A program made the translations under genes and the position numbers. Positions 2,272 through 39,311 of a stretch of DNA of 39,311 nucleotides are shown here, one piece after another. The stretch is from an uncultured Clostridia bacterium. GTDB taxonomy: Bacteria; Bacillota; Peptococcia; Peptococcales; Peptococcaceae. The first letter of the stretch is position 1, and every line of letters starts with the position of its first letter. The DNA is taken from assembly GCA_944391625.1 (NCBI GenBank), contig CALXUG010000027.1, forward strand, positions 1 through 39,311. The letters are read 5' to 3'. The notes below the pieces were generated by a model. That model was not told where the DNA came from. It saw nothing but the letters and a program-made list of their open reading frames with translations, and ran no database searches.

Positions 2272-3570
2272 TTATTTTTTTGTGTCCAATGGTTGTATCG
2301 GCAGCAGCACAGACAGGGTAAAGACATGGGCCTCGGTTTCTATCTGCATATGACCTTGATTTTGTTCCACTGCTTTTCTTATATTAAACAGGCCGAAACC
2401 GTGTTCCGGCTGTTGTTTGGTGCTTAGCGGCAGCATTTGTGGAGAAAACCGGGGCTGTTGTTTTAATGGATTGCGAAAAGCAATGCAGAACATGGTATCG
2501 CTCTGGGTAATGCTGATGGAAATACGGCGCTGGTCGGCAGTCAGGTTTGTACAGGCTTCAACGGCATTGTCCAGCGCATTGGAAAAAATGGTGCAGATGT
2601 CTGCCGGCGGTAGATGCAGTGCTGTAAGAAAAGAGCCGTTTACTGTAAGCTGGATCTGCTGTTGACTAATTAACGCATATTTGCCGTTTATGATAGCGTC
2701 GGCAATATCATTGCCGGTGTGGAACAATGGTGCGGTTTCCTGCCATTGTTCGGTCAGGTTTTCGATATACCGGCTAACCGCTTCCAGATTGCCTTTTTTG
2801 CTGAGTAGCTCCAGCGTCAGCAGGTGATTTTTCATGTCGTGGCGATAACGGCGCAAAGTTTCCTGCTGTTTTTTGTAGGCTTGAAAATGCTGCAGTTCAT
2901 GTTCCATATATTGCTGATTGAGTTGGTTGACAAATTTGTAGTAGGCTTTGGCTCTACTTTGAAAAAAGAGAAAGCAGAACATACCGTCTAACAACAAGGT
3001 GCATAAAAGCAGCATTGTAGGCAGCCATGTACCGCCGGAGGATAAAATTTCTGTCATTTGTGCAGAAGGGTCAAGCAGCACTACAATTTGCAGTGTCAAC
3101 AGATTGAGTATCAGGCAGGTTACAATTTCCGCAGGGCTGATAGAAAAAGGCTGTATCATTTTACGCTGATAATGGTGGCAGAGAGCAATCGTCAGCAAAT
3201 CCAGTCCGATGCCAAGTATGGTTATTAACGCTTGGTTCTGCAGCTGCAGCAGCGTCAACAGCAATAGCAGAACATTGGAGGCCAGCAGCAAAAACAGCAT
3301 AAAGGACAGTAAAACGCCCAGTTTTTTCAGTTTGTGTGGAACGGCAAACAGCCGGAACAGACACAGCGGATAAAGGATAAACAACAGCAGCAGTTCTGAT
3401 GCCGGCCAGTTCATCCACTGACAGCCCAGCGCCAGCAAAAACGTGCTGCTGTAGCAAAGCCAGAATTTTTTGTGCAGTGTCAGATCCGGTACAAACAGAA
3501 AGCGCAGCAGATAAGCAAAGGCCAGCAAATCAGCCAGTAGGGAAAGAATATTAAGTGCCGGTATCAGCAT
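2272..3570 (-). CDS. AgrC-like sensor histidine kinase, GHKL type
   Basis: A 432-residue kinase. Residues 1-205 hold six to seven hydrophobic segments (the sensor), followed by a coiled coil and the phosphoacceptor motif RRYRHDMKNHL with His244. The C-terminal HATPase_c domain shows the N box (FSNALDNAVEAC, about 328-339) and the G box (HGFGLFNIRKAV, about 389-400). This matches the AgrC/ComD-type HPK10 family, which senses peptides or membrane signals and phosphorylates a LytTR regulator. Its start codon overlaps the regulator's stop by one base (TAATG), so translation is probably coupled. The ligand is unknown; no pheromone precursor is obvious in this operon. Confidence 0.9.
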   Translation of the reverse strand: MLIPALNILSLLADLLAFAYLLRFLFVPDLTLHKKFWLCYSSTFLLALGCQWMNWPASELLLLFILYPLCLFRLFAVPHKLKKLGVLLSFMLFLLLASNVLLLLLTLLQLQNQALITILGIGLDLLTIALCHHYQRKMIQPFSISPAEIVTCLILNLLTLQIVVLLDPSAQMTEILSSGGTWLPTMLLLCTLLLDGMFCFLFFQSRAKAYYKFVNQLNQQYMEHELQHFQAYKKQQETLRRYRHDMKNHLLTLELLSKKGNLEAVSRYIENLTEQWQETAPLFHTGNDIADAIINGKYALISQQQIQLTVNGSFLTALHLPPADICTIFSNALDNAVEACTNLTADQRRISISITQSDTMFCIAFRNPLKQQPRFSPQMLPLSTKQQPEHGFGLFNIRKAVEQNQGHMQIETEAHVFTLSVLLPIQPLDTKK

Positions 3571-4280
3571 TACATTTTCACCGCCTGTTGCACATAACGA
3601 TGCAGCGCTGCAGCAAAGGTTTTGCGGCGCAGCCTGCTTACCGGAACCCGCATATTGTTGGTTAGCAGCACATCTTGCACGGTAAGCTGTTTTACGGCGT
3701 TGAGATTGACCAGATAGCTGCGGTGACAGCGCACAAAATCCATATCCTGCAGCAGTGTTTCATATTTGGCCAGGGTTTCCCGCCGAGTGAGCTGTCTGTC
3801 CGGCAGATAAAAAATTAAATCCTGGTTGCGAGCTTCCACGCAGATTAGATTTTGTATTTTGATTAGATGGGTTCCTTCCCGGGCTTCCAGCAAAATTGTT
3901 TTTTGCTGCTGCAGTGTCTGGCTGGCAGTTTGCAGAGCTTCTAGCAGCTTTTGCGGCGATACCGGCTTTGTCAGAAACCGAAGAGCGTTGACTTCGTAGC
4001 CGTCCAAAGCAAATTCTTGATGAGATGTAATAAATACCACCGGCGCTTCATAGTGCATCTGCTGTAATCTGCGGGCAATATGCAGACCGTTGTCACCGTC
4101 CATTTCAATGTCCAACAGAATCAGCTGATAGGCAATCTGGCTGCGGATTATTCTATCCAGCAGTTGTTCTCCTGCGGTAAAAGTGTCTATCATCAGTTCC
4201 GGCAGTGGATACAGCTGTTGAATCATTTGCTGCAGCTGTTGGATAAAAAGCGGTTCATCATCACAAATGGCAATTTTCAT
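3570..4280 (-). CDS. LytTR-family response regulator
   Basis: A 236-residue regulator. The receiver domain is at 1-120, with acidic residues D7 and D8, phosphoacceptor D57 in LLDIEMDG, and the conserved lysine in RFLTKP. The LytTR DNA-binding domain is at about 135-235 (ending PVSRLRRKTF). The start at 4280 is chosen because AGGAGG sits 8 bases upstream and the family begins MKIAICDDE; a longer frame to 4346 has no ribosome site. It overlaps the upstream membrane-protein gene by four bases (ATGA) and the kinase gene by one, so the three form one operon. It is the likely partner of the kinase at 2272-3570. Targets are not identified here. Confidence 0.92.
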   Translation of the reverse strand: MKIAICDDEPLFIQQLQQMIQQLYPLPELMIDTFTAGEQLLDRIIRSQIAYQLILLDIEMDGDNGLHIARRLQQMHYEAPVVFITSHQEFALDGYEVNALRFLTKPVSPQKLLEALQTASQTLQQQKTILLEAREGTHLIKIQNLICVEARNQDLIFYLPDRQLTRRETLAKYETLLQDMDFVRCHRSYLVNLNAVKQLTVQDVLLTNNMRVPVSRLRRKTFAAALHRYVQQAVKM

Positions 4281-4951
4281 GGCTGCGCCTCCTGTTGATT
4301 CTGTTCCGCTGCGGTAAACAGCTCCGGATATTTTACTTGCTGCCATGCCTGCCAGTTGCGTTGGGTTTTAAAGCCGGACTGGATAAAGCAGGGAATGAAC
4401 AGCAGCGCGGTAGCAAGGCTTTTGCCTGTTCTTGCGTTTTGGAAAAAGTAGCCGCTCATCAGTAGATGCAGATCAAAAACTACACCTACTTCCAATGCCA
4501 GCGTAACCAGCAATCTGAGCCAAAATTTGCGGCGGGGATTTTTTTCTGATTGTTCAAAGGCCATAATTACCAGAAAACCCAGTAAAATCATGACGCCGAC
4601 GCTGATTACTATGGGCGCCAATGCGCCGCCTTGGGCTTGGTTTTGCATAATGACGGTGTTCAGCCCTTTGACCAATAAAAACAGCACTGCGAAACTGACA
4701 GTCAGTGTCAGCGGAATGGCAAAGCGATACAGAAAGCTGCTTTTGGTCAGCGGTTCTTTTGCTTTGGGCGCGGCGTTTTCTTCTGCGGTCAGGGATTTGA
4801 GGTCGGTGCTGCAGAAAAAATCAACCAACTCTAAAAGAGTGTTGTACAATGCTTTAAAAACGGGCAGCCAGTAAGCGCTGAACTTGAGCAGCCCGATTCC
4901 GCATAATACAAGAAGAATCAGTAAAAATACCATAGCTTCGAGAGAAAACAT
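4277..4951 (-). CDS. Integral membrane protein of unknown function in a two-component operon
   Basis: A 224-residue protein with about five membrane segments (about 6-25, 76-96, 110-132, 144-166, 176-192) and a charged cytoplasmic loop (about 48-68). No family motif is recognised. It is the first gene of an operon with the LytTR regulator and AgrC-like kinase (4-base overlap with the regulator). It could be an accessory sensor, an immunity protein or a signal transporter, but nothing in the sequence decides this. The ribosome site (GGAT) is weak. On the minus strand TATAAT at 4990-4985 is a possible -10. Confidence 0.7.
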   Translation of the reverse strand: MFSLEAMVFLLILLVLCGIGLLKFSAYWLPVFKALYNTLLELVDFFCSTDLKSLTAEENAAPKAKEPLTKSSFLYRFAIPLTLTVSFAVLFLLVKGLNTVIMQNQAQGGALAPIVISVGVMILLGFLVIMAFEQSEKNPRRKFWLRLLVTLALEVGVVFDLHLLMSGYFFQNARTGKSLATALLFIPCFIQSGFKTQRNWQAWQQVKYPELFTAAEQNQQEAQP

Positions 4952-5112: not shown

Positions 5113-5802
5113 ATGTGGAGTATTGCCATTTGTGATGATGAAGAACAAGTACATAAAGAAATTGTCCATTTGCTGCAAATGAACGGGGCGGAAGATTGTC
5201 AGGTGGAGCATTTTACTAATGGAGCTGATTTATTGCAAAGCGCTGTTAGTAAGCAGTATGATTTGATTTACCTGGATATTCAGATGCCTGGTTTGAATGG
5301 GGTGGAAACTGCCAGATCCTTGCGGCAACAACATTGTGCGGCAGCAATTTGGTTTTTAACAAATTTTGATGATTATTTGGAAATTGGCTATGAGGTACAG
5401 GCATTTCGGTATCGGTTTAAGCCATTAGACCCAATTATTTTTGCTAAGGATTTTTGTGCGTGGCAACAGTGGCAAAAAACGCATGGGGTGCGTTCTGTAT
5501 CTGTTATTGATGCCGGCAGTGTGCAGCAGGTGGCGGTGCAGGATATTATCTATTTGGAGATTGTACATCGCAAGGTACAGATTGTTACCGTCAGTGGCGT
5601 GTGTAGCAGCACAGAGGATATGGGTTATTGGGAAAATACATTAGGGAATACCGGCTTTTTATCGCCTTATAATAAAATACTGGTGAATGTGGAGCATGTA
5701 AAATTTTTTGACAGTGCAAAAGTGATTGTAACCGGTGATGTAACATTACCTATGTCCAGAAGAAAATATCAAACTTTTCGGAAAGCCATGCTGCAAAGTT
5801 AA
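5113..5802 (+). CDS. LytTR-family response regulator, likely controls the 5.9-9.6 kb island
   Basis: A 229-residue regulator. The receiver domain has D8, D9, E10, phosphoacceptor D55 (YLDIQMPG), the conserved Thr in FLTNFDDY, and K103 in RFKP. The LytTR domain spans about 130-228 and ends PMSRRKYQTF. It is transcribed away from the membrane protein-regulator-kinase operon. A ribosome site (GAGGGA) lies 7 bases before the ATG, and an extended -10 (TGGTATCAT) is near 5074-5082. The next two transcription units each start with a paired CCACTTTT repeat of the spacing LytTR proteins recognise, so this protein is the best candidate to bind them. Its partner could be the split kinase at 7932-9648 or the conventional one at 2272. 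The family is certain; the circuit is inferred. Confidence 0.92.
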   Translation: MWSIAICDDEEQVHKEIVHLLQMNGAEDCQVEHFTNGADLLQSAVSKQYDLIYLDIQMPGLNGVETARSLRQQHCAAAIWFLTNFDDYLEIGYEVQAFRYRFKPLDPIIFAKDFCAWQQWQKTHGVRSVSVIDAGSVQQVAVQDIIYLEIVHRKVQIVTVSGVCSSTEDMGYWENTLGNTGFLSPYNKILVNVEHVKFFDSAKVIVTGDVTLPMSRRKYQTFRKAMLQS

Positions 5803-5911: not shown

Positions 5912-5979
5912 ACCACTTTTACAGTAAAAATGACCACTTTTGCAAATGTTATTGCAATTGTTTTTATTTTTTGTAAAAT
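5912..5979 (+). promoter_or_regulatory. LytTR-type operator and promoter, copy 1
   Basis: Two direct repeats, ACCACTTTTACA (5912-5923) and ACCACTTTTGCA (5933-5944), start 21 bp apart (two helical turns). They are followed by a promoter TTGCAA (5952-5957)-N16-TAAAAT (5974-5979). The same ~80 bp block recurs at 7290-7356 with only a few differences. AgrA/ComE-type LytTR proteins bind paired ~9 bp direct repeats with about 12 bp between them. It controls the gene at 6074. Confidence 0.7.
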
Positions 5980-6073: not shown

Positions 6074-6403
6074 ATGACAGATAAAGAACAATTATATTTT
6101 GATGCTTTACAGGAAATTGCAGAACGGTTGGGACATAGTATTGAGCATCCGATTTCAGTGTCATTATTATGCTTACAATTAGGTATAAGTAATGATGAAA
6201 AAGGGAGAATTTTTGTAGCCTTTAATCAGGTATTACGAAAGAATGCCCCTAAGGAGTTAGAGGTGGAAAAATTTAAAATTGCTTTGGAGGATGTCAATCC
6301 AAAATTTGGGGAATTTAATGATAAAGTTGTGTGTGGCTTAATTAAAGCCTTTTCTCTGCACTACATCCCTTCTCTGTATTCTTTTGCAAGAACATTGAAT
6401 TAA
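6074..6403 (+). CDS. Small protein of unknown function, paralogue of the next gene
   Basis: A 109-residue, mostly helical soluble protein with no signal peptide. ATG 6074 is chosen because GAAGG lies 10 bases upstream and the paralogue at 6508 begins at the equivalent place. The two share the pattern LYFDAL.EIAE.LG..E.PISV.LLCLQL throughout. It is the first gene after LytTR operator copy 1. In peptide-regulated Firmicute loci, small soluble paralogues beside a secreted peptide are often immunity proteins; that is only a suggestion here. I do not recognise the family. The coding sequence is AT-rich, like the whole 5.8-9.6 kb segment. Confidence 0.75.
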   Translation: MTDKEQLYFDALQEIAERLGHSIEHPISVSLLCLQLGISNDEKGRIFVAFNQVLRKNAPKELEVEKFKIALEDVNPKFGEFNDKVVCGLIKAFSLHYIPSLYSFARTLN

Positions 6404-6507: not shown

Positions 6508-6849
6508 TTGGATTATTCCATTTTAACCAGTGAAGAATATTTGTATTTTGATGCTCTAAATGAGATTGCAGAACAGTTAGGTAACAGTTTTGAATATCCT
6601 ATTTCGGTAACGTTATTATGTTTACAATTGGAGATTACAAATAAAGAGAAAGAAAAAATAGTTTTTGCGTTTCAACAAGTCTTACAGGATAATTCCTTTG
6701 ATAAATTAGATGTAGAAAAATTTAGAGTTGCTCTGGAATGTATTAATCCAAGGTTTGGGAAATTTGCAAATAAGGTTATAATTGGATTGATAAAAGGTTT
6801 TTCACAGGAATATATAACGGAACTGCACCCTTTTGCAATTACACTGTAG
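6508..6849 (+). CDS. Small protein of unknown function, paralogue of the preceding gene (TTG start)
   Basis: A 113-residue protein homologous over its full length to the product of 6074-6403 (shared EYPISVTLLCLQL, LDVEKF..AL and NP.FG.F..KV). TTG at 6508 is preferred because GGGAGG lies 7 bases upstream and it places the N-terminus level with the paralogue; an in-frame TTG at 6478 has no ribosome site. An out-of-frame ATG at 6503 would encode only seven codons. It is probably cotranscribed with 6074 (104-base gap, no terminator). Tandem duplication followed by divergence suggests selection for variants, as for immunity or regulatory proteins, but no function can be assigned. Confidence 0.75.
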   Translation: MDYSILTSEEYLYFDALNEIAEQLGNSFEYPISVTLLCLQLEITNKEKEKIVFAFQQVLQDNSFDKLDVEKFRVALECINPRFGKFANKVIIGLIKGFSQEYITELHPFAITL

Positions 6850-7194: not shown

Positions 7195-7289
7195 GGTGTT
7201 TTTTACATGATTGGTAAGGAATAATTATATTCTAAATGAAGTAGATAAAATTGATATGTTTTAGCATGGATACTGAATTAAAAAGAGTG

Positions 7290-7356
7290 CCACTTTTACA
7301 GTAAAAATGACCACTTTTGCAAATGCTATTGCAATTGTTTTTATTTTTCGTAAAAT
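7290..7356 (+). promoter_or_regulatory. LytTR-type operator and promoter, copy 2
   Basis: CCACTTTTACA (7290-7300) and CCACTTTTGCA (7311-7321) are 21 bp apart, then TTGCAA (7329-7334)-N16-TAAAAT (7351-7356). It is almost identical to copy 1 at 5912-5979, so both units should answer to the same regulator. It drives the secreted protein at 7408 and probably the two kinase genes. Confidence 0.7.
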
Positions 7357-7407: not shown

Positions 7408-7857
7408 ATGAATACAAAAATGAAAAAAGTGGTAGCAGGAGCGGTATTGGGTACATTTGCTTTTGGAGTTGCATCTCCGGCGTTTGCGGTTCCTACAAGT
7501 GAACAACGTGTTGAAATGACGGTTGCAAGTACGCAGTATATAAAAGATATGCCGTTAGACCATGGGAGTGGTGATATAGAAACCTATGGAATTAAAGGTA
7601 TGACTTTGAAGGCATTAAAAGAATTGGTTGAGAATAATTGGACAAAAATCACAACACTTATGATTGAATGGAATATTGAGATTGAAATGATTAAAAACCT
7701 CAATGAATTAAAGAGTACTTTCTTTGATGCAATGGATTCTTTATTTAGCGTGTGTGATACTGTACATGAATTATTAGTAGAATCATTTAAGAGTATTGGT
7801 TTTAACTCAACAATGGCTACATTAGCAGCAGATGCAGTTTGTTTTATTATTTTATAA
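7408..7857 (+). CDS. Secreted protein, possible bacteriocin or signal precursor
   Basis: A 149-residue precursor with a clear Sec signal peptide (MKKVVAGAVLGTFAFGVA core, predicted cut after ASPAFA at about residue 27). The mature part of about 120 residues has no obvious catalytic motif. It contains the segment ETYGIKGMTLKALKELV, then amphipathic helices, and ends in a hydrophobic stretch (AADAVCFIIL). The middle recalls, from memory only, the YGIK.K.IK.AL region of large unmodified secreted bacteriocins and putative toxins of Firmicutes (Geobacillin 26/SAR2788-like); this is untested. GGAGG lies 9 bases before the ATG. It is the first gene after LytTR operator copy 2 and is followed by a hairpin, so it may be made in excess of the downstream kinases. 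Confidence 0.75.
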   Translation: MNTKMKKVVAGAVLGTFAFGVASPAFAVPTSEQRVEMTVASTQYIKDMPLDHGSGDIETYGIKGMTLKALKELVENNWTKITTLMIEWNIEIEMIKNLNELKSTFFDAMDSLFSVCDTVHELLVESFKSIGFNSTMATLAADAVCFIIL

Positions 7858-7870
7858 AATGCAGGTATGA

Positions 7871-7902
7871 CTATGTCGAGAAATAATTTTTTCTCGACAT
7901 AG
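7871..7902 (+). terminator. Hairpin between the secreted protein and the kinase pair
   Basis: Arms CTATGTCGAGAAA (7871-7883) and TTCTCGACATAG (7891-7902) form a strong stem without a long T run after it. It probably acts as a leaky terminator or mRNA-stabilising hairpin that sets the ratio of the secreted protein to the kinases. Confidence 0.6.
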
Positions 7903-7931
7903 TTTATGTCTACAGATTGGTGGGAGATAGG

Positions 7932-8759
7932 ATGGATTTTAATATTATTATTGGTATCATTTTATTGCTTGTTTTTATTATTGTGCCTATATTACCACTT
8001 GCATATTTGTTATTCAAATTTTTTCAAGATGCAATTCGACTGGCCAAAGAATTACGTGTGGACTATCAAAATATTTCTGCCGAAATACAGCAAGAAGAAT
8101 TGGAAAATTATTTACACAAACAGCAACAAAAAGAACAATTAGGCATAGGGCGATATTATAAAGAAAAAATGGTGAGTTTTTTTCAAAAGTATGCGTTTTG
8201 TTTTTATGTGGTGCTTGTAATTGGAATATTGGTGTTTTTTTGTTTAGGGCCATGGTTTATGCAATCTGCGCAGCCAACATTGCCGCGGATTGAAGAACCA
8301 AAGTTAGTTTCTTTTATTTTTTTGCCAATACAAGGAATTGTGTTCTTTGGTTTCATATGTAGTAAAAATGAAAAAAGAAAGTGGCAATGGGCCGCTGGTT
8401 TGGCTGGGATTTTTACGTTAGAATTATTGTGGGGATTGTTAATAGAGCGCTCCGCATTTGCATTGGAAAAAGTATTTATTATTGTTTTATCATTGGGATT
8501 AGTTATGTACTATTATCAACAATGGAAACAAAAAAGTGACGAACAATTGTTATTACTACAGGAACGATTAAGAGAAAGTAACTTCACTAGTGATATATTA
8601 TTACAGCAATATAATTGCTTACAAGAACAACGGCATGACACCAAAAAGCACTTTTCGGTTTTACGCTACCTAGCGCAAGAACAAGAATTAAAAGCAATTC
8701 AAAATTATATAGAGCGGTTGGAGCAAAACGGAAGGGAACAACAAAATGAAACCAAATAA
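7932..8759 (+). CDS. Membrane sensor with phosphoacceptor histidine but no ATPase domain (split kinase, His half)
   Basis: A 275-residue protein. About five membrane segments occupy residues 1-200, then a coiled coil leads to QEQRHDTKKHFSVLRYL, an AgrC-type phosphoacceptor motif with His235. The frame ends about 40 residues later, where a normal kinase would continue into the HATPase_c domain. ATG 7932 is preferred (GGGAG 5 bases upstream) over an in-frame TTG at 7917. The last 14 bases overlap the next gene, which has the ATPase domain but lacks the histidine. The two therefore probably form a complementary heterodimer. Because the second gene has its own start, ribosome site and membrane segments, this is not a simple frameshift. 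The motifs are seen; the joint action is inferred. Confidence 0.8.
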   Translation: MDFNIIIGIILLLVFIIVPILPLAYLLFKFFQDAIRLAKELRVDYQNISAEIQQEELENYLHKQQQKEQLGIGRYYKEKMVSFFQKYAFCFYVVLVIGILVFFCLGPWFMQSAQPTLPRIEEPKLVSFIFLPIQGIVFFGFICSKNEKRKWQWAAGLAGIFTLELLWGLLIERSAFALEKVFIIVLSLGLVMYYYQQWKQKSDEQLLLLQERLRESNFTSDILLQQYNCLQEQRHDTKKHFSVLRYLAQEQELKAIQNYIERLEQNGREQQNETK

Positions 8760-9648
8760 TTGGTTGCAAAAAAAACTAATGCAGTCAAAGCATTTTTTAG
8801 TGGGTGTTTGGTCGCTATTGTTTTTGTTGGATTTATTTTGTCTGCTATATGTGGCTGTACTTTGGATTGAAACAGGATTTTCTATTTCGAAAATGAGTAC
8901 TTTTGGGCAATATTTATTTATGATAGGGACAATAGTTTTTATCATTTTAATAACGATGATGGTTTTTTATTCTAAGTGTATTCAGAAAAAAGAAATGGAA
9001 TTGCGTCAAACATATACGCAACAACAATTGGAGCAAAATCAGGTATATCAGTTATTATTGCAGCAAAAAATGGAGAACATAGAACAGGAGCGAGAAAATT
9101 TTAATTATCAAATAGGATGTATGAAGGAATTGGCTGCTCAGAACCATATGCAGGAGTTAATTACTTATGTAGATCAATTAACAAATAGTAGTGACAAGAC
9201 CATATTACAGAGGTTAACGGGACATTTGTTATTAGATATTCTGTACAGCGAAAAATTACAGAAAGCAAAAGACGCACAGATAAAATTATCATTAGATTAT
9301 CAACCCGATGCCTGTTTAGAACAAGTGGATACATATGATTTTTATTTATTATTAGGCAATCTACTGGATAATGCTATAGAGGCTGCTGCAAATAGTAATG
9401 GACGTTGGGTAGAGTGTGAAATGCTGCGTAAAAATGCTTATTTGGATCTTCTGATTGTACGTAACAGTTGTGATGCATCACCGACGTTTATTGATGGTCT
9501 GCCTGTATCACAGCGAGGTGAAGGACATGGCTATGGGGTAAAGATTGTGCAGCGTAAAGTAGCTCAGTATCATGGCGATTGTATGTTTTATTATGATGCC
9601 GAAAAAAAATTATTTTCTGTGCATATCTTATTGCCAAGAGAGGGTTAA
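8746..9648 (+). CDS. Membrane GHKL ATPase with degenerate histidine motif (split kinase, ATPase half)
   Basis: A 300-residue protein. Two membrane segments (about 17-42 and 54-75) are followed by a coiled coil and a dimerisation-like region in which the usual R-H-D is R116-E117-N118, so no phosphoacceptor is present. An intact HATPase_c domain follows, with N box NLLDNAIEAA (Asp208, Asn209) and G box GEGHGYGVKIV. It starts inside the end of the preceding gene (14-base overlap; AAGGGA upstream of ATG), which implies translational coupling. The expected role is to bind ATP and phosphorylate His235 of the neighbouring protein, which would then pass the phosphate to a LytTR regulator such as 5113-5802. 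The alternative is a regulatory pseudokinase. Confidence 0.82.
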   Translation: MKPNNWLQKKLMQSKHFLVGVWSLLFLLDLFCLLYVAVLWIETGFSISKMSTFGQYLFMIGTIVFIILITMMVFYSKCIQKKEMELRQTYTQQQLEQNQVYQLLLQQKMENIEQERENFNYQIGCMKELAAQNHMQELITYVDQLTNSSDKTILQRLTGHLLLDILYSEKLQKAKDAQIKLSLDYQPDACLEQVDTYDFYLLLGNLLDNAIEAAANSNGRWVECEMLRKNAYLDLLIVRNSCDASPTFIDGLPVSQRGEGHGYGVKIVQRKVAQYHGDCMFYYDAEKKLFSVHILLPREG

Positions 9649-17815: not shown

Positions 17816-17962
17816 CTATCACCGGAAGGGATTTTGTTGAAAAGCCATTGTTTTCTTTTTTGTGACATGTTACATAAAAACGACGAGTCTTGCATGTTTC
17901 GTGTCACATTTTGCGGATAATTCAAATCAGATTAATTTTTGATTGTGTTTTTTGCAAAATTT

Positions 17963-17971
17963 TGGTATACT
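17963..17971 (+). promoter_or_regulatory. Extended -10 promoter of the coiled-coil gene
   Basis: TTGGTATACT (TG at 17963-17964, TATACT at 17966-17971) is an extended -10 element 23 bases before the start codon, so the leader is very short. Confidence 0.5.
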
Positions 17972-17993
17972 GTTGGCGGGAGGTGTTGACCAC

Positions 17994-18479
17994 ATGGACA
18001 TGGAAACAAAGGAGATGTTTCATCTTGTTCTTTCTGAACTAAAAGAAATGAAAGGGGACATGCATCAGTTAAAGCAGGATGTGTCTGAACTGAAAGAAGA
18101 TGTAACTGTCTTAAAGCAGGACGTATCCGAACTGAAAGAAGATGTAACTGTCTTAAAGCAGGACGTATCCGAACTGAAGGAAGATGTAACTGTCTTAAAG
18201 CAGGATGTATCCGAACTGAAGGAAGATGTAGCTGTCTTAAAGCAGGACGTATCCGAACTGAAGGAAGATGTAACTGTCTTAAAGCAGGATGTATCCGAAC
18301 TAAAGCAAGATGCAGCAATCTTAAAGTCCAACCAAACCGTTTTATTAGAAGCAATCAATACACTCCAACAAAACGAACAAGAACATTTCACAACACTTAG
18401 CAACAAAGACGCAGAACTGGAAACGGTAGTCCGGCAAAATTCTTACGATATTGCGCTGTTGCGCAGTAGAGCAAGTTAG
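17994..18479 (+). CDS. Coiled-coil protein with 14-residue repeats
   Basis: A 161-residue soluble protein. Residues 26-109 are six tandem 14-residue units of the form LKQDVSELKEDVTV, that is two heptads each, which should form a long parallel coiled coil. The DNA shows the same 42-bp period from 18069 to 18320 with few differences, so copy number could vary between strains. The ends are also helical (MDMETKEMFHLVLSELKEM and a C-terminal NTLQQNEQEHF region). GGGAGGTG lies before ATG 17994. Similar small coiled-coil proteins are common in Firmicutes without assigned function. It is a single gene with its own promoter and terminator. Confidence 0.8.
   Translation: MDMETKEMFHLVLSELKEMKGDMHQLKQDVSELKEDVTVLKQDVSELKEDVTVLKQDVSELKEDVTVLKQDVSELKEDVAVLKQDVSELKEDVTVLKQDVSELKQDAAILKSNQTVLLEAINTLQQNEQEHFTTLSNKDAELETVVRQNSYDIALLRSRAS
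18069..18320 (+). repeat. Six tandem 42-bp repeats within the coiled-coil gene
   Basis: Units start at 18069, 18111, 18153, 18195, 18237 and 18279, each beginning TTAAAGCA. Internal units are nearly identical, which implies recent expansion. Confidence 0.9.
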
Positions 18480-37380: not shown

Positions 37381-39311
37381 ATGAAAAAAACAGTAAAGAA
37401 ACATGTAGCAGAGGCGGCGTTGGTTAGCTTTACCTTCGCCTCGGTGCTGCCGGGCGGCGCAGCATTTGCAGCCGCAGATGTGACCGATGTGAACGGCCAT
37501 TGGGCTGAACAGGCTATCCACGACTGGATGGAACGGGGCTATATTGGCGGTTATGAGGACAACACCTTCCGTCCAAACCAAACCATTACCCGTGCAGAAT
37601 TTGTAAAATTGGTGAACAAAACCATTGATGCTGACCAGACAGCGACCATTGCATTCAGCGATGTGAGCGACAGCGACTGGTTTGCCGGCGAAGTGGCCTT
37701 GGCATTGGGTGAAGGCTATGTGTCCGGCTTTGAAGACGGCACATTCCGTCCGGGCGAGCCGGTGACCCGCGCGCAGGCAGCTGCATTTTTGGCAAAAGCA
37801 TTGAAACTGACCGGCGATGCCGACGCTGTTGCGGATATGACCGACAGCGCAGCAATTCCTGACTGGGCAGTCGGCGCAATCGGCGCAGTGGTAGCCGAAG
37901 GTTACATGGGCGGTTACGAAGATGGTACATTCCGTCCAAATCGTCCGCTGACCCGCGCAGAAGCAGTGTCCATGTTAAATCGTGTACTGAATGACGACGG
38001 CAATGAAGATACCAAACCGCCTGTTGTAATTGGCGGCGGCGGTGGTTCCTCCAGCGGCGGCAGCAGCGGTGGCGGCAGTGTTACAAGATATACTGTTACC
38101 TTTGATACTGACGGCGGTAGCACGGTAGCATCGGTTACTGTAAAAAGAGGTGACAAGCTGACCAAACCGGCAGATCCAACCAAAACAGGTTATACTTTTG
38201 GCGGCTGGTATACTGATAAAGCCTGCACAACACCATGGAATTTTGAAAATGATACAGTAAGAGAAGCAACCACACTGTATGCGAAGTGGGACGTAGCAAG
38301 CGTATCTTCTGTAAAAGTTGTAGATGGGAAAGATGGTTATACACCAGTTACCAATCCTGTTGCAGGTCAGGTACTGTATGCCAATGTAATGCTGTCTGAT
38401 GGAACAGAAATTGGTACTTATCCGGTAGATGATAGAGTGACCTATAAATGGTACTATGAAGGCAGCGATGATGCAGTATTGGGTACCAAGCCAACCTATA
38501 CTGTAACCAGAGATAATGTGGGTAAAAAACTGTGTGTGACAGTTGCTGTCAAAGGTTATAAAGGAGAAGTAACTTGGACAGCTGCAGCCGCCGTTCCTGC
38601 TGTAACAGTATCTTCCGTAGCAGTGGTAGATGGGGCTGATGGATTTACTCCGGTTACCAATCCTCGTGCAGGTCAGGTGCTGAATGCCAATGTAATGCTG
38701 TCTGATGGAACAGAAATTGGTGTTTATCCGGTAAATGCGGATGTAACATATGAATGGTACTACAAAGAAAGTCCAGAAACTGTATTGGGTACCGAACCAA
38801 CCTATACTGTAACCACGGATAATGCGGGAAAAACATTGTGTGTAACAGTAACTGTGAAAGATTGCGAAGGAGAAGCAACTTGGACGGCTGCAAAGGCAGT
38901 AGCAGCAGTATCTTCTGTGAAGGTTGTGGATGGAACAAATGGTTATACACCAGTTACCAATCCTGTTGCAGGTCAGGTGCTGTATGCCAATGTAATGCTG
39001 TCTGATGGAACAGAAATTGGTGTTCACCCGGTAAATACGGATGTAAAATATGTTTGGTCCTACGAAGGCAGTGATGCAGTATTGGGTACCGAGCCAACCT
39101 ATACTGTAACGAAAGATAATGTAGGTAAAACATTGTGTTTAAAAGTGACCATGAAAGGTTATGAAGGAGAAGCAACTTGGACAGCTGATAAAGCAGCTGT
39201 TATGGAGGTATCTTCCGTAGCAGTGGTAGATGGAGCTGATGGATTTACTCCGGTTACCAATCCTCGTGCAGGTCAGGTGCTGAATGCCAATGTAATGCTG
39301 TCTGATGGAAC
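37381..39311 (+). CDS. SLH-domain surface protein with tandem repeats (3' end beyond window)
   Basis: At least 643 residues, still open at the window edge. The signal peptide is about 1-31. Three S-layer homology domains (about 34-76, 95-137, 155-199; motifs GHWAEQAI, GYEDNTFRPN..ITRAEF, GFEDGTFRPG..VTRAQA and GYEDGTFRPN..LTRAEA) should bind pyruvylated wall polymer. A Gly/Ser linker (about 218-234) and an InlB-type repeat (236-305, TFDTDGGS and GYTFGGWYTD) follow. Then come about 100-residue repeats starting at residues 309, 411, 511 and 611, alternating two types. GGAGGAG lies 9 bases before ATG 37381. It is probably a wall-anchored adhesin or S-layer-associated protein. Confidence 0.92.
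   Translation, partial: MKKTVKKHVAEAALVSFTFASVLPGGAAFAAADVTDVNGHWAEQAIHDWMERGYIGGYEDNTFRPNQTITRAEFVKLVNKTIDADQTATIAFSDVSDSDWFAGEVALALGEGYVSGFEDGTFRPGEPVTRAQAAAFLAKALKLTGDADAVADMTDSAAIPDWAVGAIGAVVAEGYMGGYEDGTFRPNRPLTRAEAVSMLNRVLNDDGNEDTKPPVVIGGGGGSSSGGSSGGGSVTRYTVTFDTDGGSTVASVTVKRGDKLTKPADPTKTGYTFGGWYTDKACTTPWNFENDTVREATTLYAKWDVASVSSVKVVDGKDGYTPVTNPVAGQVLYANVMLSDGTEIGTYPVDDRVTYKWYYEGSDDAVLGTKPTYTVTRDNVGKKLCVTVAVKGYKGEVTWTAAAAVPAVTVSSVAVVDGADGFTPVTNPRAGQVLNANVMLSDGTEIGVYPVNADVTYEWYYKESPETVLGTEPTYTVTTDNAGKTLCVTVTVKDCEGEATWTAAKAVAAVSSVKVVDGTNGYTPVTNPVAGQVLYANVMLSDGTEIGVHPVNTDVKYVWSYEGSDAVLGTEPTYTVTKDNVGKTLCLKVTMKGYEGEATWTADKAAVMEVSSVAVVDGADGFTPVTNPRAGQVLNANVMLSDG
38305..39311 (+). repeat. Tandem ~300-bp repeats in the surface-protein gene, ABAB order
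   Basis: Units start at 38305, 38611, 38911 and 39211. Units 1 and 3 resemble each other, and unit 4 matches unit 2 with one difference over the first ~100 bases visible, so the duplicated block is about 600 bp. Confidence 0.9.

Follow-up and report, generated by a model that had tools for sequence, protein, structure and literature searches.

A putative split AgrC-type receptor kinase encoded by two overlapping genes of a gut Peptococcaceae-type bacterium

Introduction

Can the phosphoacceptor and the ATPase of a membrane receptor kinase reside on two different membrane proteins, each of which has physically lost what the other retains? The question is raised by two overlapping genes, here called P1 and P2, within a stretch of 39,311 nucleotides (the window, to which all positions refer unless another locus is named). 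An earlier note, made from the letters of this DNA, had described their products as complementary halves of one histidine kinase. The window belongs to a genome of 2.97 Mb in 74 contigs. Since a sister species was recovered from water buffalo cecum (MAG Peptococcaceae bacterium RGIG7294, a second species of the same genus, referred to as G005), we take the source to be a gut Peptococcaceae-type bacterium.

Results

Two proteins carry complementary kinase domains

The features of the locus are collected in Table 1. P1 starts at the ATG at 7932, with GGAG just 5' of it, and is a protein of 275 aa with about five membrane helices by hydropathy. A Pfam search returned zero matches to P1 and hence no ATPase match. 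In profile comparison its residues 223-264 matched, at 96.5% probability, the histidine hairpin of AgrC-like kinases, His235 being the histidine of an AgrC-like RHD hairpin (RHDTKKH). The AlphaFold model of P1 is poor (mean pLDDT 61.5) and was set aside, and no relation of its membrane part to any named family was seen.

P2 is a protein of 300 aa, read from the ATG at 8746 with GGAAGGG upstream, and has two membrane helices by hydropathy. In alignment with full kinases, Glu117 (in REN) takes the position of the phosphoacceptor histidine. The rest of the protein carries an AgrC-related GHKL ATPase (Pfam HATPase_c_5, E 1.6e-14; HATPase_c, 5.9e-7) in which the N-box LLLGNLLDNAIEAA and the G-box GHGYGVKIV are both intact. 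The nearest solved structures by profile are those of Staphylococcus aureus AgrC (7.6e-14), and fold comparison of the predicted model (pLDDT 74.9, higher across the ATPase) ranks AgrC 6e95 first; the curated AgrC model NF046015 gave P2 30.7 bits and its cut-off of 500 was not reached.

In the sense in which CheA3 and CheA4 are a split kinase, P1 is therefore a phosphoacceptor domain without a catalytic domain and P2 a catalytic domain without a phosphoacceptor, and the RHD-type H-box and ATPase that AgrC/HPK10-type kinases hold on one polypeptide are divided between them. The open reading frames, their domain content and the 14-base overlap are as the earlier note had given them. We rejected the possibility of one frameshifted kinase: the start, the ribosome site and the membrane segment of two helices in P2 are its own, which rules out a single frameshift. 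In P1, in P2 and in HK447 and HK460, full-length kinases from G005 and from the genome G007, respectively, 43 residues separate the final membrane helix from the histidine or its equivalent, so that P1 and P2 could pair in register.

Table 1. Features of the split-kinase locus and of its secreted protein family (window positions unless another locus is named)
Feature	Position	Strand	Basis or remark
LytTR response regulator, proposed phosphate acceptor	5113..5802	+	Pfam; orthologues in G005 and G007
LytTR-type direct repeat ACCACTTTT-N12-ACCACTTTT, promoter of the 6074 gene group	5912..5944	+	10 bp upstream of -35-like TTGCAA
109-aa cytoplasmic protein, paralogue of the 6514 protein	6074..6403	+	Relative in G005
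111-aa paralogue of the 6074 protein	6514..6849	+	60% identity; TTG 6478 is a possible start of the ORF
95-aa protein of the 6074 gene group, predicted membrane helices	6907..7194	+	
Second ACCACTTTT-N12-ACCACTTTT copy, promoter of the peptide-P1-P2 unit	7289..7321	+	Only other copy in the genome
149-aa protein with signal peptide (MNTKMKKVVAGAVLGTFAFGVASPAFA), of the peptide family of the locus; candidate signal or regulated output	7408..7857	+	Comparison with the locus family
Strong hairpin downstream of the peptide gene, before P1; probable processing site or leaky terminator	7864..7912	+	-24.4 kcal/mol, z -7.6
P1, membrane protein with phosphoacceptor hairpin (DHp), without ATPase domain	7932..8759	+	Pfam, profile comparison, orthologue in G005
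His235 codon, proposed phosphoacceptor	8634..8636	+	H-box; conserved in the G005 orthologue
P1/P2 gene overlap, 14 nt, ATGAAACCAAATAA; translational coupling likely	8746..8759	+	14 nt in G005 too
P2, two membrane helices, coiled coil, degenerate hairpin (Glu117 replaces His), intact GHKL ATPase (about residues 160-298)	8746..9648	+	Pfam, alignment, profile and fold comparison, hydropathy
Secreted family members of about 150 aa	window 7408-7857; L026 1099-1542, 3634-4092, 4660-5103; L064 170-643, 4736-5179, 6145-6600		

The pair recurs in a second species of the genus

The earlier note had proposed looking for the same pair in other genomes, and G005 contains one. Its P1 and P2 are 37% and 44% identical to those of the window, their genes overlap by 14 nt, P1 retains the histidine (FRHDTRKHF) and P2 (306 aa) has a serine at the histidine position; the division of labour that the note had read from one genome is thus repeated in another, and a pair that recurs in this way looks like a working two-part receptor and not like a broken gene. 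The G005 P1 gene is split over two contig ends (C6 and C87), each finishing in an IS30-like element. The end of this element occurs on contigs C28, C12 and C59 as well, and this repetition accounts for the contig breaks. The element (L026, about 6043 to the end, plus the P1 end of L022) is bounded by imperfect terminal repeats of 24 bp and a target duplication of 2 bp (AC), and its removal restores an in-frame protein of 283 aa that is 37% identical to P1 over the full length. The G005 pair was therefore whole before this element inserted recently. Upstream of its P1 unit the repeat is damaged, and the neighboring peptide gene is a remnant of about 48 codons; with P1 interrupted as well, the module is dispensable in that species.

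A scar of the whole locus lies in a further genome (G004, contig C4; L087 4568-5086), flanked by genes for a replication-initiator-like protein and a solute-binding protein, and consists of one LytTR repeat, a small membrane-protein remnant and 52 aa of a kinase C-terminus. The split system is optional in the genus and has been lost piecemeal. The pair is known from two species only: the G005 MAG was the sole match in a search of genome contigs, no relatives outside the genus were obtained at E 1e-9 among 398 genomes drawn from the phylum, none beyond the family among class-level genomes, and none on plasmids or viral contigs.

A homologue of P1 with an intact ATPase domain, which the note had named as evidence against its reading, was not found for the membrane part of P1; the similarity of full kinases to P1 is limited to the coiled coil and the histidine hairpin. 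Two candidate sources for the parts of P1 were considered and not adopted. Gene order hinted that its membrane part derives from a membrane protein of about 200 aa that accompanies full kinases (window 4277-4951 and relatives), but BLAST and profile comparison (probability 14.5%) lend this no support. Nor can the hairpin be assigned as a copy from one particular kinase, as HK460 (16/42 identities), HK447 (15/42) and the window kinase at 2272 (15/42) are too near each other to choose. A 420-aa protein of G004 (contig C21; L025 6321-7583) has a P1-type membrane part without the histidine, fused to a member of the family of about 200 aa.

Constraint on hairpin and ATPase is reciprocal

Between the two species, the hairpin of P1 is 61% identical (72% in the H-box core) versus 32% for its membrane part, and that of P2 is 23% identical versus 61% for its ATPase (Fisher p 6e-4 for P1, 5e-5 for P2). 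The control pair of full kinases from the same type of locus, HK447 and HK460, shares 62% identity in the hairpin and 54% in the ATPase. The reciprocal pattern indicates that selection on the hairpin has shifted from P2 to P1. The histidine was lost to different residues in the two P2s (Glu, Ser) and kept in both P1s. Among 33 GHKL proteins of the bacterial family the H-box reads HD in 30 and RHE in one, with the histidine missing only from the two P2s.

Within the P1 family the histidine is kept only where a P2 gene is adjacent (2/2), and it is absent from the five P1 relatives found without a P2 alongside (two in G003, two in G004, one on contig 62 of G005), two of which sit on a 3-kb contig, so that one of the neighborhoods is only partly covered. 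Differences between the diverged orthologues are fewest at second and most frequent at third codon positions, as in constrained genes, synonymous sites being saturated for dN/dS.

In a tree of the 33 GHKL proteins the two P2s join (support 100/99) and are sister to HK447 plus HK460 (100/99). One G005 locus holds both HK447 and the split pair, while the HK460 locus of G007 has the orthologous regulator, peptides and repeats and no split pair. P2 is the sole member of this clade in the window genome, which has no full kinase of it, and the regulator there is thus left with no other matching kinase. The simplest account would be that duplication and specialization took place within the genus and that the species of the window later lost its full kinase.

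A regulator and two promoter repeats accompany the pair

The LytTR response regulator encoded next to the pair, as is usual for AgrC/HPK10-type kinases, is 56% and 53% identical to the same-locus regulators of G005 and G007 versus 21-29% to the other regulators compared, and its orthologues adjoin the pair as well as a full-length kinase. Both repeat sites consist of 9-mers 12 bp apart, 10 bp upstream of TTGCAA-N16-TAAAAT. LytTR promoters are marked by direct repeats 11-13 bp apart and about 10 bp upstream of the -35 element, and the two sites match the geometry of autoregulated LytTR operons, with 12 bp between the repeats and 10 bp to -35 (PMC6193735). The 2.97-Mb genome contains exactly two copies of the double repeat, both of them at this locus, with none expected in shuffled windows; within the family it is confined to four genomes of the genus.

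A secreted family of about 150 aa, whose members have near-identical signal peptides and diverged helical C-termini, adjoins the regulator and the repeat sites. These proteins could be pheromones, bacteriocin-like proteins, or precursors of these, and the hairpin downstream of the peptide gene suggests that more of the peptide is produced than of P1 and P2. The two cytoplasmic proteins of about 110 aa under the 5912 repeat site (6074, 6514), which have no family match, are possible immunity proteins; a third copy in G005 (L026 4085-4420) is 60-68% identical.

The minus strand of the window at 2272-4951, divergent from the split system, encodes a complete AgrC-like kinase, a LytTR regulator and a membrane protein of about 224 aa, the family of which also adjoins full kinases in G005 and G007. 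Elsewhere in the window, an ORF at 17943-18479 has repeated coiled-coil units (DVSELKEDVTVLKQ), and a long ORF at 37975-39027 has repeated units (TNFCSIRQHYIGIQHLTC) and probably just shadows a repetitive gene that lies in a different frame and continues beyond the end of the window.

Discussion

We propose that P1 and P2 are the halves of a naturally split agr/Fas-like receptor kinase, in which phosphate would pass one way from P2 to His235 of P1 and on to the regulator within a feedback loop, and we give this reading a probability of about three in four. P1 and P2 would pair in the membrane through their coiled coils and hairpins, as the obligate heterodimer that the earlier note had predicted, and the P2 ATPase would phosphorylate His235 in trans; P2 should be unable to phosphorylate itself because it has no acceptor histidine. 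Phosphorylated P1 would in turn serve as phosphate donor to the LytTR regulator of the locus (gene at 5113), which is expected to bind the double repeats at 5912 and 7289, activating the peptide-P1-P2 unit as well as the 6074 gene group and so closing a positive loop. We are more tentative, leaning against rather than for it, about a further specification, namely an obligate two-receptor kinase with its own membrane sensor on each half, both halves needed and maybe two inputs (an AND gate), where the acceptor hairpin came to lie on a membrane protein of separate origin and the kinase proper lost its histidine.

Accessory proteins of histidine kinases do exist, as RetS acts on GacS, and P1 and P2 might likewise serve full-length kinases, P2 by pairing with another GHKL kinase or P1 by being phosphorylated by one, without acting on each other. 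At least seven other GHKL kinases are encoded in the window genome and might take part in cross-talk, G005 keeps a full kinase and the pair in a single locus, and the relatives of P1 that lack both histidine and neighboring P2 show that the fold has other uses. We nevertheless consider this account unlikely, because the window genome retains the orthologous regulator yet lacks any full kinase of the P2 clade, and because the gene overlap and the reciprocal constraint point to P1 and P2 as each other's partners.

Decay is evident at related loci, in the insertion and the peptide-gene remnant of G005 and in the scars to which the G004 locus has been reduced, and could suggest that both reading frames are relics of a kinase, devoid of kinase function. 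The window offers a different picture: its reading frames are complete, with ribosome sites, and the promoter and repeat site are intact, while the diverged orthologues keep frame, H-box, ATPase motifs and the codon-position bias of constrained genes. Two proteins of which one has a membrane part of its own are, moreover, not derivable by one frameshift. This reading is already disfavoured, and we consider it very improbable. We see just as little room for the idea that the pair acts mainly as a phosphatase or sink, or senses the regulator, with P2 as a nucleotide-gated regulatory subunit. A precedent is free CheA3, a phosphatase in the split system of Rhodobacter sphaeroides (PMC3591291). Such a role would, however, require a separate kinase for the orthologous regulator, where the right clade is absent, and the N- and G-boxes of P2 are intact.

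To our knowledge, the direction of phosphorylation within the dimer and the identity of the sensing subunit can be separated in ordinary kinases only by engineered mutants. In the split kinase proposed here nature seems to have fixed the separation, P1 being able only to accept and P2 only to donate, and the pair would offer a clean test of trans-phosphorylation for AgrC-type kinases. Its full-length relatives in sister species provide a before-and-after comparison for the passage from a homodimeric receptor to an obligate heterodimer: HK447 and HK460, the sister group of P2, have regulator, peptides and repeat sites in common with the pair, but each is a complete kinase that unites YQHDFKKH and ATPase on a single polypeptide.

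Both split kinases and AgrC-type heterodimers have precedents, and the novelty lies in a membrane pair of AgrC type whose members have physically lost complementary parts; our search of open-licence papers found no AgrC-type membrane receptor divided in this manner into two membrane proteins. The CheA3/CheA4 pair of R. sphaeroides is likewise a natural split kinase, with histidine and kinase domain on separate proteins and one-way phosphorylation in trans, which indicates that a kinase divided as P1 and P2 are can work; theory predicts switch-like responses for split kinases (PMC3591291). CheA3 and CheA4 are, however, soluble chemotaxis kinases with an HPt-type P1 domain and not AgrC-type membrane receptors. 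In Synechocystis, Hik36 and Hik43 share a kinase between two genes and have one regulator as target, but they are of CheA type, encoded by distant genes, with an HPt domain in one half (PMC7656254). S. aureus AgrC (PDB 6e52/6e95, 4bxi) resembles P2 in its GHKL ATPase, hairpin type and LytTR partner and differs in being a single polypeptide with a six-helix sensor that forms a homodimer.

P1 and P2 would be the natural counterpart to an arrangement in a pathogen, the FasB/FasC/FasA system of group A Streptococcus, which lends the proposed mechanism its strongest external support. There, too, two AgrC-like membrane proteins accompany one LytTR regulator, acceptor histidine and sensor coming from one of them and the ATPase from the other. 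FasB and FasC form heterodimers and not homodimers; FasC(1-286), which lacks the ATPase, works together with FasB, FasC requires H246 and FasB needs its own ATPase, so that truncated forms with the domain content of P1 and P2 stay functional (PMC12675982). FasB and FasC nevertheless each retain all three domains (membrane, hairpin and ATPase), although in experiments they can do without the surplus ones (PMC12675982). In the pair described here the surplus parts have been physically lost, the ATPase by P1 and the histidine by P2.
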